From Solirubrobacter ginsenosidimutans (lineage in GTDB: Bacteria > Actinomycetota > Thermoleophilia > Solirubrobacterales > Solirubrobacteraceae), in contig NZ_JAPDOD010000015.1 in assembly GCF_027587205.1 (NCBI RefSeq), positions 1-64,000 of the forward strand: 64,000 bases of DNA. The letters are read 5' to 3'. Positions 12,205 to 18,820 of the stretch are shown one piece after another. The notes under the pieces are model-generated. The model saw only the letters and a list, made by a program, of their open reading frames with translations. It did no database searches and had not been told where the DNA came from. The position numbers and the translations under genes were made by a program. Numbering within the stretch: position 1 is the first letter of the stretch; the number at the start of each line of letters is the position of its first letter.

Positions 12205-13998
12205 TCAGCCGGCGCGCCTGCGTTTCGCGCGATAGAGCGCGCCGTCGGCGCGTGAGATCAGCGCTTCGAGGTCGTCGTCGTCGTTGAGCTCCGCAAGCCC
12301 GGCGCTGATCGATGCACCGTGGCGGAGCCCGTCGAGGGCGTGTTGGATCGCGGTGATGCGTGTGGTCGCGACGTCGAGCGTGGCGTCGGAAAGGGCGCAG
12401 ACGAACTCGTCGCCGCCCCAGCGGACCACGACGTCGTAAGCGCGCATGATCGAAGTCGTGGCCGTGGCGACATCGCGCACGAGCGCGTCGCCGGCGGCGT
12501 GTCCGTCGACGTCGTTGACGTGTTTGAGGGCGTCAATGTCGATCACGGCCAGGATCAGGGGCCGCTGTGAGCGGCGCGAACGCGCGATCTCGCGCGTGAG
12601 GGCCAGCTCTCCTGTGCCGCGCCGGGACACGCCGGTGAGTTCGTCCAGGCCGGCATGGCGGCGGTCCTCGGCGGCTTGCCGGCGATCTGTGGCGGCCGCG
12701 ACGCGGTCTGCGGCCGCCATGGCCCGCTCGTGCACGGAGCGCTCGTGCAGCGCGACGTCGACGGCCCCGCGATCACGTTCGGCGGCCGTCTTGTCGCGGG
12801 CCGCCGCGGTGAGATCGCGGGCCTGGGCCACGTGATCGCGCTGGTCTGCGGCGACCAGCCGATGCTCGGTCTCTCGCGATCGCATCGCGGCCGTGGAGCC
12901 GCGGTCCAGCGCGGCCGCGTCGCGCGCGAAGCGCGTGGCCTGATGCGTCCGAGCGGGCGGCGGGGCGGCCGCGGGCTGGTCGTCGTCAGCGGCGGGCTGA
13001 TCGCGATCAGGCTGCCGCGGGTCGGCGTCGAAGTCGCGTTCGACGATCGCGAGGAAGGCGTCCAGAACGGCTGGGTCAAAGGCGGTGCCGCGGCCTGCGA
13101 TGAGGTAGCGGATGACTTCAGCGTGCGGGAGCCGCGGACGGTAGACGCGGTCGCGGGTGAGCGCGTCGTAGACGTCGGCGACAGACGCGATGCGGCCGTC
13201 AAGCGGGATCTCCTCGCCGGCGAGGCCCCGTGGGTATCCCGCGCCGTCGTAGCGTTCATGGTGCGTCCACGCGATCTGGGCTGCGATCTGGAGCAGCTCT
13301 GACCGTGAGCCGGCCAAGATGCGGTAGCCGATCTCGGCGTGTAGCTGCATGGCGCTGCGCTCGGCACCGGTGAGCGGACCGGGTTTGAGCAGGATCTCGT
13401 CAGAGACGCCCACTTTGCCGACGTCATGCATCGGACTGGCCGTGCGCAGCAGGTCGCAGTGCTCGCGTGGAAGCCCGAGTTCTCGTGCGATCTGCCAGCA
13501 GTGCTCGCTCATGCGGGCGATGTGTGCGGCGGTGTCGACGTCACGCGCCTCGACGGCGACGCACAGTCGCCGGATCGTGTCCTCGCCCATGCCGCTCGGG
13601 TCGTCGGTCGCGGCGCGGCGATGCCGGAGCGCGCCGAGGACGGCGATCAGGACGTCGTTGATGCTGAACGGCTTGACGACGTAGCCGTAGGCGCCGATGC
13701 GCAACGCGCGGTCGGCGAGCGCGATGTCGTCGAGGCCGCTGACCATCAGCGCGGCCATGCGCTCGTGGCGCCGAACGGCGTCTTCGACGAGGTCCAGGCC
13801 AGATTCACCCGGCATCGCGACATCGCACACGATCAGGTCATAGGGCGCGCGCTGCAGCGCCTCGCGGGCGCTCGCGGCGTCTTCGGCGAGCGTGCAGCGA
13901 TAGCCCTCGCGCCCGAGGATATGTCCGAGCAGCGCCCGCAGCCCCTCGTCGTCGTCGACGACCAGGATCCGCTCCCGGATCGGGCCGACGTCAGGCAT
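12205..13998 (-). CDS. Response regulator with HD-GYP and GGDEF domains (c-di-GMP signalling)
   Basis: A 597-residue three-domain protein. The receiver domain (1-~125) has phospho-acceptor D59 and K109. The HD-GYP phosphodiesterase (about 140-330) has H191-D192 and HHERYDGAGYP (245-255). An alanine/arginine-rich coiled linker (about 345-440) leads to the C-terminal diguanylate cyclase, with GGDEF at 528-532 and an intact RxxD inhibitory site five residues before it. Both catalytic motifs look complete, so one phosphorylation-controlled protein could make and degrade c-di-GMP. I chose the ATG at 13998, which begins the receiver fold; an upstream in-frame start would add 52 unrelated residues. 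It is divergent from the kaiC operon. Confidence 0.88.
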   Translation of the reverse strand: MPDVGPIRERILVVDDDEGLRALLGHILGREGYRCTLAEDAASAREALQRAPYDLIVCDVAMPGESGLDLVEDAVRRHERMAALMVSGLDDIALADRALRIGAYGYVVKPFSINDVLIAVLGALRHRRAATDDPSGMGEDTIRRLCVAVEARDVDTAAHIARMSEHCWQIARELGLPREHCDLLRTASPMHDVGKVGVSDEILLKPGPLTGAERSAMQLHAEIGYRILAGSRSELLQIAAQIAWTHHERYDGAGYPRGLAGEEIPLDGRIASVADVYDALTRDRVYRPRLPHAEVIRYLIAGRGTAFDPAVLDAFLAIVERDFDADPRQPDRDQPAADDDQPAAAPPPARTHQATRFARDAAALDRGSTAAMRSRETEHRLVAADQRDHVAQARDLTAAARDKTAAERDRGAVDVALHERSVHERAMAAADRVAAATDRRQAAEDRRHAGLDELTGVSRRGTGELALTREIARSRRSQRPLILAVIDIDALKHVNDVDGHAAGDALVRDVATATTSIMRAYDVVVRWGGDEFVCALSDATLDVATTRITAIQHALDGLRHGASISAGLAELNDDDDLEALISRADGALYRAKRRRAG

Positions 13999-14107
13999 GA
14001 GCGGCCACGAAGACGATGCCGTCCGCGGCGAGCCCCGGACACTGCTCATAACGCTCCGCAGGCGCGACCTGTACGCCGACAGGCGCACCAGGCGGGCGCA
14101 TCTACCC

Positions 14108-14136
14108 AACATAGCCCGCCATGCGTCACTAATCAA
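14108..14136 (-). promoter_or_regulatory. Sigma-70-type promoter for the REC-HD-GYP-GGDEF gene
   Basis: On the minus strand, TTGATT (14136-14131), a 17-bp spacer and TATGTT (14113-14108): near-consensus boxes at ideal spacing. This predicts a leader of about 100 nt before the ATG at 13998. Confidence 0.5.
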
Positions 14137-14191
14137 TAGACCCTGCAAGGACAAAGCTCGCGAGCCCCTCGGCGCGCTTTCTGGTGCGTCG

Positions 14192-14197
14192 TATAGT
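14192..14197 (+). promoter_or_regulatory. Possible -10 of the kaiC operon
   Basis: TATAGT in the plus direction, 122 nt before the kaiC ATG. No good -35 stands 16-18 bp upstream, so the promoter may need an activator or alternative sigma factor, or lie elsewhere. Confidence 0.3.
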
Positions 14198-14319
14198 AAG
14201 GATTTCCACGCCGATCAAGGCCGTGGTTGCGAGTCGAGAGACGCTTGGTTTGAGCGCGTGGACGACACAGTCGTTGCCCGCGTTAACCGGCTCGACGCCT
14301 CCCGAGGAAGGAGCACGCG

Positions 14320-16095
14320 ATGCTCGCCGAGGCGATCAAGGCCGGGATGGCCACAGGGCCGGACGGTCGATTGGGAGTGCTTCCGAAGACGCCTACGGGC
14401 ATCAGCGGCTTGGACGAGGTGACGGGCGGCGGGCTGCCGCGGGGGCGTCCGACGCTGGTCTGCGGCCCTGCGGGGTGTGGCAAGACGCTGCTGGCGATGG
14501 AGTTCCTGGTGCGCGGGATCACGGAGTTCGACGAGCCGGGGGTGTTCGTCGCGTTCGAGGAGACGGCCGAAGATCTGATCGCCAACGTGGCGTCGATGGG
14601 TTTTGACCTCGCGAAATTCGAGGCCGACGGCCGGATGGTGATCGACCACGTCGCGATCGCCGGTGGAGAGATCGAGGATGCGGGGGAGTGGGACCTGGAG
14701 GGGCTGTTCGTGCGCCTCGGGGCGGCGATCGATGCGGTCGGTGCCAAGCGGGTGGTGATCGACACGATCGAGACGATGTTCGGCGCGTTCTCGAACACGG
14801 CCGTGCTTCGCTCCGAGTTGCGCCGGCTGTTCGGTTGGCTCAAGGACCGCGGCGTGACGGCGGTGATCACCGCCGAGCGCGGCGACGGGACGCTGACGCG
14901 CTACGGCATCGAGGAGTACGTCTCAGACTGCGTGATCGTGCTCGATCACCGCGTGTCCGAGCAGGCCTCGACGCGGCGGCTGCGCATCCTGAAGTACCGC
15001 GGCTCGCTGCATGGGACCAACGAGTACCCGTTCCTGATCGGTGAGTCGGGCATGTCGGTCCTGCCGATCACCGCGCACGGCTTGCAACACGGCGTCTGTA
15101 CCGAGCGGGTGTCGACCGGCGTGCCGCGGCTTGACGCGATGCTCGGCGAGGGCGGTTTCTACAAGGGCAGCACGGTGCTCGTCAGCGGTACCGCGGGCAC
15201 CGGCAAGTCGACGCTGGCGGCACAGTTCTGCGACGCCGCGTGCAGCCGTGGCGAGCGGACGATGTATTTCGCGTTCGAGGAGTCAGAGGCGGAGATCATC
15301 CGCAACATGGCCTCGGTCGGGATGGACTTGCGACGCTGGGTGGACGCCGGCCTGCTGCGGTTCCATTGCTTCCGTCCGACGCTCCTCGGCCTCGAGGCGC
15401 ATCTGTTCGCGATGCAGAAGTACGTCCGCGAGTTCGACCCTGCCGTGATCGTCAAGGACCCGATCTCAGACCTCGTGCGTGTAGGGACCGGAGCGGACGT
15501 GTCCTCGATGCTGACGCGTCAGGTCGACTTCTTGAAGTCCAGGGGCGTCACGGCGCTCTTCACCAGCCTCAACCCCGAGGTGGCCACGGCCCAGGCGGAC
15601 CAGCAGATCGCGTCGCTCGTCGACACGTGGCTGCGGGTCAAGACGATGGAGGGCAACGGCGAGCTCAACCGGGTCCTGTACGTGCTCAAGTCGCGCGGGG
15701 TGGCGAACTCCAACCAGATCCGCGAGTTCATGCTCACGAGCCACGGGATCGAGCTCGCCGACGTCTACGTCGGCCCGCAGGGGGTGCTCACCGGCTCAGC
15801 CCGCCAGGCCCAGGAGGCCCAGGAGACCGCGGAGTCAACCGCGCGGTCGGAGGACCTCGAGCAGCGCAAGCTCAACCTCGAACGCCGGCGCAAGTTCGTC
15901 GAAGCGCAGACCGGAATGTTGTGGCGCGAATTCGAGGACGAAGCCGCGGGCGTGGAGCGCCTGATCATCCACGGCTCGACGGGCGCTGACGATCGCGCCG
16001 GCCAGCGCGCCGCGCAGGGCCGGCTCCGTCGCGCCGACGCTGCCCTGCCGGGGCTCTTCGACCGCCCGAGCGACATCGTCGCCGGTGTGTCATGA
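14320..16095 (+). CDS. kaiC: KaiC-like double-domain ATPase/kinase
   Basis: A 591-residue RecA-like protein with two KaiC domains. CI has P-loop GPAGCGKT (49-56) and catalytic E80-E81; CII has P-loop GTAGTGKS (290-297) and E320-E321. In cyanobacterial KaiC the CII sites S431/T432 carry the circadian phosphorylation; here the matching IxxLVDT segment has A431 and S432, so only one acceptor remains. A ~70-residue charged helical tail (from about 505) extends the protein. A strong GAGGAAGGAG Shine-Dalgarno precedes the ATG. It overlaps the first kaiB gene by ATGA. It could time or gate output through the hybrid kinase; autonomous circadian rhythm is not implied. Confidence 0.9.
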
Positions 16096-16415
16096 GCGAG
16101 ATCGATTCCGAGCTCGGCGTCATCGCGGACCGCGAGCTCTGGTGCCTGCGCTTGTATGTCGCCGGTCAGTCACCCAAGTCGCTGCGGGCGTTCGCGAACC
16201 TCAAGACGCTCTGCGAAGAGCATCTGCCCGGGTGCCATGAGATCGAGATCATCGACCTGATCGAGCAGCCGGCGCTGGCGCGCATCGACGACATCGTCGC
16301 GATCCCGACGCTCGTCCGCCGCCTCCCGATACCGCTACGCAGGATCATCGGCGACCTCTCAAACACAGAACGCGTCCTGATCGGACTCCACCTGCGGCCC
16401 GAGGCGCCGCTATGA
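16092..16415 (+). CDS. kaiB: KaiB protein, canonical type
   Basis: A 107-residue thioredoxin-like KaiB. The core keeps family landmarks: [46 protein letters not shown] and [11 protein letters not shown]. KaiB binds the CI ring of KaiC after a fold switch and, in cyanobacteria, displaces output kinases. Start and stop overlap both neighbours by 4 bp (ATGA), so stoichiometry with KaiC and the second KaiB is probably set by translational coupling. Confidence 0.92.
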
Positions 16416-16714
16416 CCGCACCCCAACCGCCGTGCGGCGCCTTGACCCTCTACGTCAGCGGCGCTTCAAAGCTCTCGGCGCGCGCGATCGCCGACGCCAC
16501 CGAATTGTGTGACGTCCTCCTGCGCGGCCGCTATGACCTGGCGATCATCGACGTGCACGAGAACCCCGCAGCCGTCGTGAGCAGCCAGGTGATCGCGGCG
16601 CCCACGCTGATCAGGAACCTGCCGCTGCCAGAGCTGAGGCTCGTCGGCGACCTCTCAGACACCGAGAAGGTCCTCGAGGCGCTCGAGCTTCCGACTGCAA
16701 CGACCGTCGGCTAG
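16412..16714 (+). CDS. KaiB-like protein, divergent second copy
   Basis: A 100-residue KaiB-fold protein ([55 protein letters not shown]). Compared with its neighbour, the RRIIGD segment reads LRLVGD and the central helix differs strongly. It is therefore an old paralogue rather than a recent duplicate. It resembles the KaiB-like domains that serve as adaptors, such as the N-terminus of SasA, here as a stand-alone protein immediately before a histidine kinase. It overlaps the first kaiB by ATGA. Role inferred: alternative KaiC partner, or link to the kinase. Confidence 0.85.
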
Positions 16715-16721
16715 GCGCCCC

Positions 16722-18440
16722 TTGCCCACTTCGCAGACAACACGCTCCGGCGCCGCGGGTCGGATGACGGCGGCCGAAGACGCGCTGCGCGCGATCGGCG
16801 CCGGCGAGGTCGACGCCTTCGTCGTCTCCGATGGCGGGTCGGACCCGCGCGTGTTCACGCTGTCGACCGCCGACCGGCCGTACCGGATCTTCGTCGAGAA
16901 CATGCGCGACGGAGCCGCGACGCTCTCCTCGGGCGGCCTGATCCTGTACGCCAACCACCGCTTGGCCCAGCTGCTGTCATGCCCGCGCGAGGTGATCGTG
17001 GGATCCTCGCTCGCGCGATTCCTCGCCGGCGGCCTCCCGATCGCGCCGAAACAGCTCAAAGGTCCCGACGGGCTCGGCGCCACGCTCGAGCTCGATCTCC
17101 TCGACGACAACGGTGTCGCCGTATCCGTCCTGGTGGGCGCCTCGCCGCTCGACGTCGACGGCGACCAGCTCACCTGCCTGACCTTCACCGACCTGCGCGC
17201 CCAGAAGGCCCAGGAGCAGGAGATCGCGCGGCTCAGCCACGCGCAGGCCAAGCAGATCGCCGACGTTCGGCAGGAGTTCGCGCTCGACCTCGCGGAGTCC
17301 CAGAAGCTCGAAGCGCTGGGCGTGCTCGCGGGCGGCATCGCGCACGACTTCAACAACCTGCTGACCGTGATCCTCGGAAACGCCGGCGTGGCACTCAGCA
17401 CCCTGGCCCCCGAGGCGCGCGAGCGTGGGCCGCTGGCGCAGGTCGAGCTCGCCGCGACCCGATGCGCCGAGCTGGCGCGGCAAATGCTGGCCTACTCGGG
17501 CAAGGGCAAATTCGTCGTCGAGATCCTCAACCTCGGCGAAATCTTGAGCGGCCAGGCCGAGCTCATCGAGGCCGCGGTCTCGAAGACGGCCGTCGTGGCG
17601 ATCGAAGTCGCCCACGACACACCGATGGTCGAAGCCGACGCGACCCAGTTGCGCCAGGTGGTCCTGAATCTGATCACCAACGCCTCGGAGGCCATCGGGG
17701 ACGCGACCGGGACCATCAGTGTCCGCTGCGGCCCGATCGACGCCGACCGGGCGTTTCTTTCCGACTACGACTTCGCCGGGCAACTTCCCGCCGGGAAATA
17801 CGCGTTCTTCGAGGTCGCCGACACCGGCGCGGGAATGGACACCGAAACCAAGGAGAAGATCTTCGACCCGTTCTTCACCACGAAGTTCACGGGGCGAGGA
17901 CTCGGCCTCGCCGCGGTCCAGGGGATCGTTCGCGGGCACGGCGGCGGGATGAAGGTCCGCTCGGCGCCGGGTCAGGGCACGGCGTTCACGCTCATCATCC
18001 CTGCGTCCAAGAAGTCCGCATCCCCGGCCGCACCCAGCGCCGCGCCCGTGATCGGACATACGATCGGCACCGTCCTCGTCGCCGAGGACAACGACGCGAT
18101 CCGACGCATGACGGTGATGATGCTCGAGTCGATCGGGCTCACCGTCGTGTCCGCGTCCGACGGCGCCGAAGCGCTGCACCTGTTCGAGCAGCGCGCGGAT
18201 GAGTTCGCGTTCGTGCTCCTCGACCTCATGATGCCCGGAATGAGCGGCGAGGAAGTCATAACGGAACTCGGACGCATCGGTACGGCGACCCCGATCGTTC
18301 TGACGAGTGGGTACGACGCGCAGGAACTCAGCCAGCGCTTCGTGGGGCGCGGCGTCGCGGCCTTCCTCCAGAAGCCATATCAGTTGAGCCAGCTGCGAGC
18401 GACCGTGCTCGAAGTACTCACGGCCCAGGTGCCCGGATAG
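16722..18440 (+). CDS. Hybrid sensor histidine kinase (PAS - HisKA - HATPase - receiver)
   Basis: About 572 residues from a TTG start (16722); an in-frame ATG at 16764 is an equally possible start. A PAS-like domain (about 30-165) is followed by a short coiled helix. The dimerisation/phospho-acceptor box has H208 in GGIAHDFNNLL, with the N-box in LRQVVLNLITNASEAI and G-boxes VADTGAGMD and GRGLGLAAV. A C-terminal receiver has D501 in LLDLMMPG. No membrane segment is present, so it is cytosolic. It lies 7 bp after the second kaiB and is very likely the output kinase of the KaiBC module. The divergent REC-HD-GYP-GGDEF protein is an obvious candidate phospho-partner (inference). Confidence 0.88.
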   Translation: MPTSQTTRSGAAGRMTAAEDALRAIGAGEVDAFVVSDGGSDPRVFTLSTADRPYRIFVENMRDGAATLSSGGLILYANHRLAQLLSCPREVIVGSSLARFLAGGLPIAPKQLKGPDGLGATLELDLLDDNGVAVSVLVGASPLDVDGDQLTCLTFTDLRAQKAQEQEIARLSHAQAKQIADVRQEFALDLAESQKLEALGVLAGGIAHDFNNLLTVILGNAGVALSTLAPEARERGPLAQVELAATRCAELARQMLAYSGKGKFVVEILNLGEILSGQAELIEAAVSKTAVVAIEVAHDTPMVEADATQLRQVVLNLITNASEAIGDATGTISVRCGPIDADRAFLSDYDFAGQLPAGKYAFFEVADTGAGMDTETKEKIFDPFFTTKFTGRGLGLAAVQGIVRGHGGGMKVRSAPGQGTAFTLIIPASKKSASPAAPSAAPVIGHTIGTVLVAEDNDAIRRMTVMMLESIGLTVVSASDGAEALHLFEQRADEFAFVLLDLMMPGMSGEEVITELGRIGTATPIVLTSGYDAQELSQRFVGRGVAAFLQKPYQLSQLRATVLEVLTAQVPG

Positions 18441-18445
18441 AGCTG

Positions 18446-18451
18446 TAGCCT
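18446..18451 (+). promoter_or_regulatory. -10 element of thioesterase gene (leaderless)
   Basis: TAGCCT 6 nt before the ATG at 18458, directly after the kinase stop codon; TANNNT form. It suggests that the thioesterase can be expressed separately from the kai operon. Confidence 0.4.
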
Positions 18452-18457
18452 CCCGCC

Positions 18458-18820
18458 ATGGGTCTTACGGAGGGCATTGAACGCACTGACGAGTTCCGCG
18501 TTGAAGGCGACCTGCTGACCGACGTGGACGGGACGTTGCCGCTGCCCGTCCTCTCGACGCCGGGCATGATCGGGATGATGGAGTGGGCGGCGACGAGCCT
18601 CGTCCGTGACGAGCTGCCGCCCGGCCACGCCACGGTCGGCTTCGAGGTCTGCATCAAGCACGTGGGCGGGGCGCTCGAGGGCGCCCTGTGCACCGTGACC
18701 GCGCATCTGCGCGAGGTGATCGAGGAGCGCAAGCTGCGCTTCGACGTCGAGGTCAAGGAAGGCGAGCGCACGATCGGGGTCGGCACGCACGAGCGGCGCG
18801 TCATCCCCGTTACCGGCTGA
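18458..18820 (+). CDS. FlK-like hot-dog thioesterase
   Basis: A 120-residue hot-dog protein related to fluoroacetyl-CoA thioesterase FlK. It has T34 (STPGMIGMMEW), E42 and H68 (CIKHVG), with the same spacings (8 and 26 residues) as the FlK triad Thr42/Glu50/His76, plus the C-terminal GVGTHERRVI strand. It should hydrolyse a small acyl-CoA or keep one from accumulating; the acyl group is unknown. It sits 17 bp after the hybrid kinase and may be read with it or from its own -10. Confidence 0.8.
   Translation: MGLTEGIERTDEFRVEGDLLTDVDGTLPLPVLSTPGMIGMMEWAATSLVRDELPPGHATVGFEVCIKHVGGALEGALCTVTAHLREVIEERKLRFDVEVKEGERTIGVGTHERRVIPVTG

Follow-up and report, generated by a model that had tools for sequence, protein, structure and literature searches.

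A tandem-kaiB operon in Solirubrobacter ginsenosidimutans and a short N-terminal module linked to kaiB

The window analysed here, a stretch of 64,000 nucleotides from the actinobacterium Solirubrobacter ginsenosidimutans (assembly GCF_027587205.1, contig NZ_JAPDOD010000015.1, positions 1 to 64,000), carries on its plus strand a four-gene operon in the order kaiC-kaiB1-kaiB2-kinase (Table 1). The last gene encodes a hybrid histidine kinase that starts with a segment of ~53 residues, called the N-module below, which in related loci lies in the gene following kaiB, ahead of kinases as well as of cyclic di-GMP (c-di-GMP) enzymes. Operons of the form kaiC-kaiB-kinase are already known, and what appears to be new here is the N-module in combination with tandem kaiB.

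The operon, its KaiC and its relatives

As claimed in a first-pass annotation of the sequence, the four genes are tightly packed, kaiC overlapping kaiB1 and kaiB1 overlapping kaiB2 by 4 bp each, with 7 bp between kaiB2 and the kinase gene, a gap that would become 49 bp if the kinase started at an alternative ATG at position 16764. A pattern scan of positions 13900-18600 returned no promoter- or terminator-like sites. The annotation had also called the operon KaiA-less, which holds for its four genes only (none is KaiA in Pfam comparisons), the remaining window not having been searched for KaiA. Similarly, its description of the kinase as PAS-HisKA-HATPase-REC stands for HATPase_c and Response_reg, which exceed their Pfam cut-offs, whereas PAS and HisKA (E 0.0015) are visible only below theirs.

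That KaiC possesses two complete ATPase domains is borne out by two Pfam KaiC stretches (E 1.8e-109) and by intact motifs: the Walker A Gly-Lys, the Walker B Asp and the second Glu of the catalytic pair are invariant in both domains of all 81 aligned KaiCs, and both members of the Glu pair are present in the window protein. Its best PDB match is the R. sphaeroides KaiC (8dba, 644 bits, residues 19-555), followed at a distance by the best chain from another source (382 bits) and by S. elongatus KaiC (~345 bits), and judged by sequence it is of the R. sphaeroides, KaiA-free hourglass type. In KaiCs of this type, a C-terminal coiled coil joins two hexamers, and part of the C-terminal extension of the window KaiC aligns with the R. 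sphaeroides tail.

In R. sphaeroides KaiC, Ser414 is phosphorylated first and Ser413 second, as given in an excerpt of PMC10076222. The window KaiC keeps the Ser414 equivalent (S432) and has Ala (A431) at the Ser413 position, so that the pair of adjacent phosphorylatable CII residues is incomplete and a two-site cycle is not available to it. Among the 81 aligned KaiCs, this pair is Ser-Ser in 68, Ala-Ser in seven (window included), Val-Ser in two, Thr-Ser in two, and Ala-Ala and Ser-Ala in one each, while the ten actinobacterial loci L001-L010 show Ala-Ser in five, Val-Ser in two, and Thr-Ser, Ala-Ala and Ser-Ser in one each. Given the missing phosphosite and the lack of KaiA in the operon, an oscillator of the cyanobacterial kind was not retained; a one-step timer or energy gate appears likelier than a two-site oscillator, and the timer or stress gate proposed in the first-pass annotation is a possible function of the operon.

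Searching contigs of species-representative genomes with KaiC gave at least 583 confirmed relatives, and the best 80 loci were used. The ten best relatives (L001-L010) are actinobacterial metagenome-assembled genomes, Solirubrobacterales first. Downstream of kaiC, two KaiBs are encoded in 56 of the 80 loci, three in one, one in 17 and none in six, several of the one-KaiB and no-KaiB loci stopping at a contig edge. Within these best 80, two-KaiB loci span Actinomycetota, Pseudomonadota, Bacteroidota, Thermodesulfobacteriota and Myxococcota, and also occur in Nitrospirota, Planctomycetota, Chloroflexota and Methanoperedens archaea. The order kaiC-kaiB-kaiB-signalling gene is widespread among relatives, and the objection that it might be unique to this strain is thereby removed. 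At the archaeal locus L019, kaiC is followed by three consecutive KaiBs, the first of which sits on a long branch.

The N-module and the effectors behind it

The N-module (consensus RLxEAExTLxAIRxGEVDAxVV...TLxGADxPYRxLVExMxEGA) runs into the PAS domain. Comparing 27 members with Pfam and NCBIfam yielded nothing of note (best E 0.037 and 0.018, each reached by a single member), and neither did a PDB comparison (best E 0.053); Pfam finds no KaiB domain in the window kinase, which thus has no N-terminal KaiB-like domain of the SasA kind. The module is located close to the beginning of the gene after the kaiB(s), mostly within ~230 bp, in 69 of the 74 KaiB loci, namely in 56 of 56 with two KaiBs and 13 of 17 with a single one. 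The five KaiB loci without a scored module comprise a partial match (L019), two contig ends (L048, L055), a weak match (L073), and L003, which is weighed below. It is found in none of the six loci without KaiB, of which four are informative, the sequences of L010 and L065 breaking off inside kaiC or where it ends. Genome G008, with one KaiB match in all, keeps the module.

The specificity of this association was tested by searching KaiB and the N-module in the same 743 genomes, drawn from three phyla that were assigned from named loci (G001, Actinomycetota; G005, Bacteroidota, Cnuella; G009, Pseudomonadota, Thiocystis). KaiB exceeds the Pfam cut-off in 16 of 296 Actinomycetota genomes (two barely), 19 of 198 Bacteroidota and 33 of 249 Pseudomonadota; the module, at E<=1e-6, is present in 7, 13 and 7 genomes, and both together in 6, 13 and 7, respectively. 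Pooled, 26 of the 27 module genomes have KaiB (Fisher p 1.6e-28), the module counts being lower bounds because scoring covered, for some genomes, only a share of the first-look candidates. The module gene adjoins kaiB in every one of the 26, with a widest gap of ~240 bp (L113), and all six tandem-KaiB genomes of the Actinomycetota draw carry it. The association of a signalling gene with kaiB, which the annotation had read from a single operon, is supported both by the locus survey and by the draws.

In the loci fetched from some of the KaiB genomes without the module, kaiC is usually less similar (~300-345 bits, over parts of kaiC) and often lies beside receiver genes; the exceptions are L127 (542 bits) and L137 (456 bits), and in several no kaiC was seen within 1.5 kb. 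Loci L154-L166, L168 and L170-L173, from the phylum of G009, show another order, mostly receiver genes, kaiB, then a less similar kaiC, and in these loci a second KaiB match often lies ~1-3 kb away on the same contig. Such loci are perhaps related to the KaiA3-type systems mentioned in an excerpt of PMC10931921. At L102, a second module protein is encoded upstream of kaiC (G290:C2:46229-46384), so that one kai operon is flanked by two module genes, and the kaiC match there (G290:C2:43704-45194) contains one internal TGA.

What follows the front end (N-module plus PAS) varies. Among 70 module proteins (69 from the loci and that of the window, some cut by contig ends), HATPase_c is found at E<=0.001 in 37, GGDEF in 10, EAL in 10 and HD_5 in 3. 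Six of the actinobacterial loci (L001, L002, L004, L005, L008, L009), and also G282, combine module and PAS with GGDEF-EAL, and the closest relative is among those that have GGDEF-EAL where the window has a kinase. L006 encodes a hybrid kinase like that of the window, and the module proteins of G065, G194 and the orphan of G291 are kinases. Between the window and L001, KaiC is 80% identical and the front end 71%, with only 16 of 94 aligned residues identical in the back halves; between the window and L006, identity is 53% for the front end and 38% for the kinase half. A labelling of the actinobacterial relatives as histidine kinases was discarded, their match to the window kinase being partly that of the shared front end and six of them being GGDEF-EAL proteins. 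Judged from these comparisons, the front end stays with kai, and at least one exchange of the effector has taken place in this group of relatives. In eight loci (L029, L030, L032, L033, L043, L070, L071, L080), Bacteroidales-type module proteins are only 232-241 residues long; the one checked, that of L029, consists of module and PAS alone, and L029 and L030 each have a separate kinase gene downstream.

The two KaiB types and the genes flanking the operon

Both small proteins match Pfam KaiB (E 2.6e-25 for KaiB1, 2.8e-18 for KaiB2), and with 39 of 83 aligned residues identical they are, as annotated, clearly different KaiBs in tandem. In a tree of 136 rows, which has few columns for its row number and in which several distal branches, some of them actinobacterial, are long, a single branch sets the 57 distal KaiBs apart from the rest; it recurs in 85% of bootstrap trees, with a support of 79/79 that falls short of the starred level. 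The distal position requires one state change on this tree and the proximal position eight, since single-KaiB rows lie among the proximal ones. The distal KaiBs thus group apart from the proximal ones, in agreement with two distinct types. The R. sphaeroides KaiB groups with the proximal KaiBs, and the sole cyanobacterial KaiB of the tree (4kso), on a long branch, has a distal row as its neighbour. In the PDB, KaiB2 matches nothing but KaiB chains at E<=0.001; SasA matches the KaiB2 profile only at E 0.16, and the KaiB1 profile not at all up to E 10. The ten nearest relatives are 73-87% identical for KaiB2 and 78-93% for KaiB1, with 75 database relatives for the former and at least 8000 for the latter, and KaiB2 seems to be diverging faster than KaiB1.

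According to part of PMC10808063, the R. sphaeroides KaiB triple mutant I68R/V83D/N84A was designed to shift the protein towards its fold-switched form. At the same three positions KaiB1 has L, I and G, and KaiB2 has E74, E89 and A90. Across the 57 KaiB pairs, in which rows within a clade are not independent, a polar residue occupies position 68 in 12 distal against 1 proximal KaiB and position 83 in 16 against 1, and Ala is at position 84 in 9 against 1. The ten rows polar at both 68 and 83 are all distal, namely the window, two other actinobacterial rows and seven Bacteroidota. Residues of KaiB2 lean to the kind favouring a thioredoxin-like fold; a rule by which all distal KaiBs would be locked in the fold-switched state was rejected, because 47 of the 57 keep Gly at 84.

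Both KaiBs were modelled with AlphaFold2 from eleven-row clade alignments (with the ten closest relatives), a method of a kind that is reportedly disputed in other papers. The KaiB1 model adopts the ground state, with a predicted local distance difference test score (pLDDT) of 67.6, and the PDB structures that it matches best, 17 KaiB crystal structures which we take to be ground-state ones, rank ahead of the fold-switched ones; KaiB1 may well be a normal fold-switching KaiB. For the KaiB2 model, of low confidence (pLDDT 50.3), no structural match reaches E 0.001: its template modelling (TM) score is 0.44 to the fold-switched 5jyt and 8ubh and 0.31-0.35 to ground-state KaiBs, more columns align to fold-switched than to ground-state structures, and the lowest Foldseek E-value belongs to the ground-state KaiB 2qke. 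The procedure was patterned after that described in part of PMC10808063.

On the upstream side, ~165 bp from kaiC, a divergent gene encodes REC, HD-GYP and GGDEF domains and is a possible c-di-GMP partner of the kinase. That it is a fixed partner found no support: the upstream neighbour in L010 has only GGDEF in common with it, and within the reach of the contigs of L001-L009 (only ~470 bp in L002) no gene like it was found ahead of kaiC. Directly after the operon lies a gene for an FlK-like thioesterase, which has no relatives in L001-L010 at E 1e-5.

Table 1. Positions in the window of the operon genes, of features within them and of the flanking genes
Feature	Position	Strand	Remarks
kaiC	14320-16095	+	591 aa; double-domain KaiC, R. 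sphaeroides type by sequence
CII phosphosite pair A431-S432	15610-15615	+	Ala-Ser instead of Ser-Ser; alignment of 81 KaiCs
KaiC C-terminal extension	15802-16092	+	aligned in part with R. sphaeroides KaiC tail, to window residue 555
kaiB1 (proximal KaiB)	16092-16415	+	107 aa; Pfam KaiB
kaiB2 (distal KaiB)	16412-16714	+	100 aa; Pfam KaiB
kinase (putative output gene)	16722-18440	+	572 aa, TTG start; N-module, PAS, HisKA, HATPase, REC
N-module	16764-16919	+	kinase residues 15-66; last ~10 residues overlap start of PAS match
PAS	16887-17195	+	kinase residues ~56-158; PAS_9 E 0.0013, below Pfam cut-off
HATPase_c	17637-18005	+	kinase residues 306-428; Pfam E 7.2e-21
Receiver domain	18072-18407	+	kinase residues 451-562; Pfam Response_reg E 1.9e-19
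Divergent REC, HD-GYP, GGDEF gene	12205-14154	-	
FlK-like thioesterase gene	18458-18820	+	

A possible reading of the Kai state, its rivals and its meaning

We propose, with about an even chance of being right, that the operon is a KaiBC cassette in which the front end of the kinase docks on the KaiC-KaiB complex and reads it, KaiB2 being accessory. By homology to R. sphaeroides, KaiC would be an ATPase and autokinase following the ATP:ADP state of the cell, and KaiB1 would switch fold, bind the CI ring, and speed both the ATPase activity and the dephosphorylation of KaiC. As the front end is kept with kai while the effector changes, it may read the Kai state for whichever effector is attached; here, this state would pass to kinase activity, then to the receiver domain and a further partner. 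KaiB2, its sequence leaning to the binding-competent fold, probably shares the KaiC ring or competes for it, and KaiC, having one CII phosphosite, would be a one-step timer or energy gate rather than a two-site oscillator. In R. sphaeroides, the KaiBC hourglass is reset by the ATP:ADP ratio (an excerpt of PMC10076222).

Several points weigh against this proposal. The E<=1e-6 cut for the module was chosen after the scores had been seen, and at the default cut of the search, 1e-3, the module occurs in 31 genomes, still 26 of them with KaiB; the count leaves out four Actinomycetota-draw genomes that lack KaiB and have partial matches (E 3.8e-4 to 7.2e-4). Seven of the 27 module genomes were already in the locus set, which leaves 20 new ones, 19 with the module beside kaiB. 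In G291, which has no KaiB or KaiC match, the module belongs to a kinase encoded next to a receiver-domain gene, while 42 of the 68 KaiB genomes are without the module (10, 6 and 26 in the Actinomycetota, Bacteroidota and Pseudomonadota draws), and at L003, where kaiC-kaiB is present, no module gene was found. The KaiB2 model has a pLDDT of only 50, and the kinase could act upstream of KaiC.

The last point leads to another explanation, improbable in our estimate, in which the kinase is an input whose PAS domain detects oxygen or redox and passes a signal to KaiC. KaiC is not known to accept phosphate from histidine kinases, which counts against it, and the varied effectors (kinase, GGDEF-EAL, HD-GYP) look like outputs. 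An input role has nonetheless been suggested for the PAS kinase beside R. sphaeroides kaiBC (excerpts of PMC5520375 and PMC10931921).

The role of KaiB2 can also be conceived differently. The first-pass annotation likened it to a SasA adaptor domain split off as a separate protein, which would bridge KaiC and the kinase, and the adjacency of kaiB2 to the kinase gene, the E, E, A residues set against L, I, G in KaiB1, the commoner polar 68/83 and Ala 84 residues of distal KaiBs, the better fit of the weak model to 5jyt and 8ubh, and the SasA match to its profile but not to that of KaiB1 all speak for this idea. It is weakened by the kinase having a kaiB-linked N-module of its own, and because single-KaiB systems keep this module, KaiB2 is not needed for output there and is unlikely to be a required bridge; the prevalent Gly at 84, the poor confidence of the model and its lowest Foldseek E-value to 2qke point the same way, and we consider the split-off adaptor unlikely. 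Somewhat less doubtful is that KaiB2 is a second ring subunit, competing or mixing with KaiB1 on KaiC and tuning the timing without acting directly at the kinase: KaiB2 retains the overall KaiB sequence and seems to diverge faster than KaiB1, and Synechocystis KaiC3 interacts with two KaiB types, as reported in part of PMC6989803.

Among known systems, the R. sphaeroides KaiBC hourglass resembles that of the window in its KaiC, by far the best PDB match and likewise with a C-terminal extension, in a KaiB of the proximal type, and in the lack of KaiA in the window operon; the window differs by adding a distal KaiB and by the Ala at the Ser413 position. The main text of PMC10076222 does not mention 'operon' or 'histidine kinase'. 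Operons with kaiC, kaiB and a histidine kinase are known (excerpts of PMC4794148, PMC3164672 and PMC10931921), e.g., in R. palustris (PMC4794148), and histidine kinases or GGDEF/EAL proteins immediately downstream of kaiC or kaiB have already been reported (PMC4794148, PMC3164672, in part). The order kaiC, kaiB, signalling gene of these operons (PMC4794148, and the first kaiC context of PMC3164672) is that of the window, with neither tandem kaiB nor the N-module mentioned in the text excerpts. The combination of tandem kaiB and N-module was not found in the literature searched, although figures of PMC3164672 may show tandem kaiB, and the paper on the Legionella kai operon lay outside that literature.

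SasA, the cyanobacterial KaiC-binding kinase, is comparable in that the window kinase is presumed to read KaiC, but the latter has no KaiB domain and carries an unlike N-module before PAS. The RtaNt kinases of Ramlibacter, likewise encoded next to kaiC, also have a conserved N-terminal segment, one described as receiver-, SasA- and KaiB-like, in a context without kaiB (compared by description only, from part of PMC3164672). Finally, the HisKA-HATPase-REC half matches the NCBIfam CckA models best, at 262 of 1000 bits, far below the cut-off, and the window kinase differs from CckA-type hybrid kinases in being encoded within a kai operon and in having a front end linked to Kai.

Taken together, the N-module may be the missing output adaptor of many non-cyanobacterial KaiBC systems, a functional counterpart of the SasA N-terminus that would read the KaiC-KaiB state for interchangeable effectors, while tandem KaiBs divide fold-switching and binding-competent work, a suggestion that we make tentatively and with a little less confidence than the mechanism above. 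If true, the window would illustrate effector exchange, between histidine kinases and c-di-GMP enzymes, behind a kept front end. A short kaiB-tied module common to both kinds of effector offers a concrete part for testing. The two KaiB lineages, in fixed order in bacteria and archaea, represent a natural experiment on the reasons for duplicating a fold-switching protein, and such a widespread operon type suggests how timers of this kind may pass on their state.

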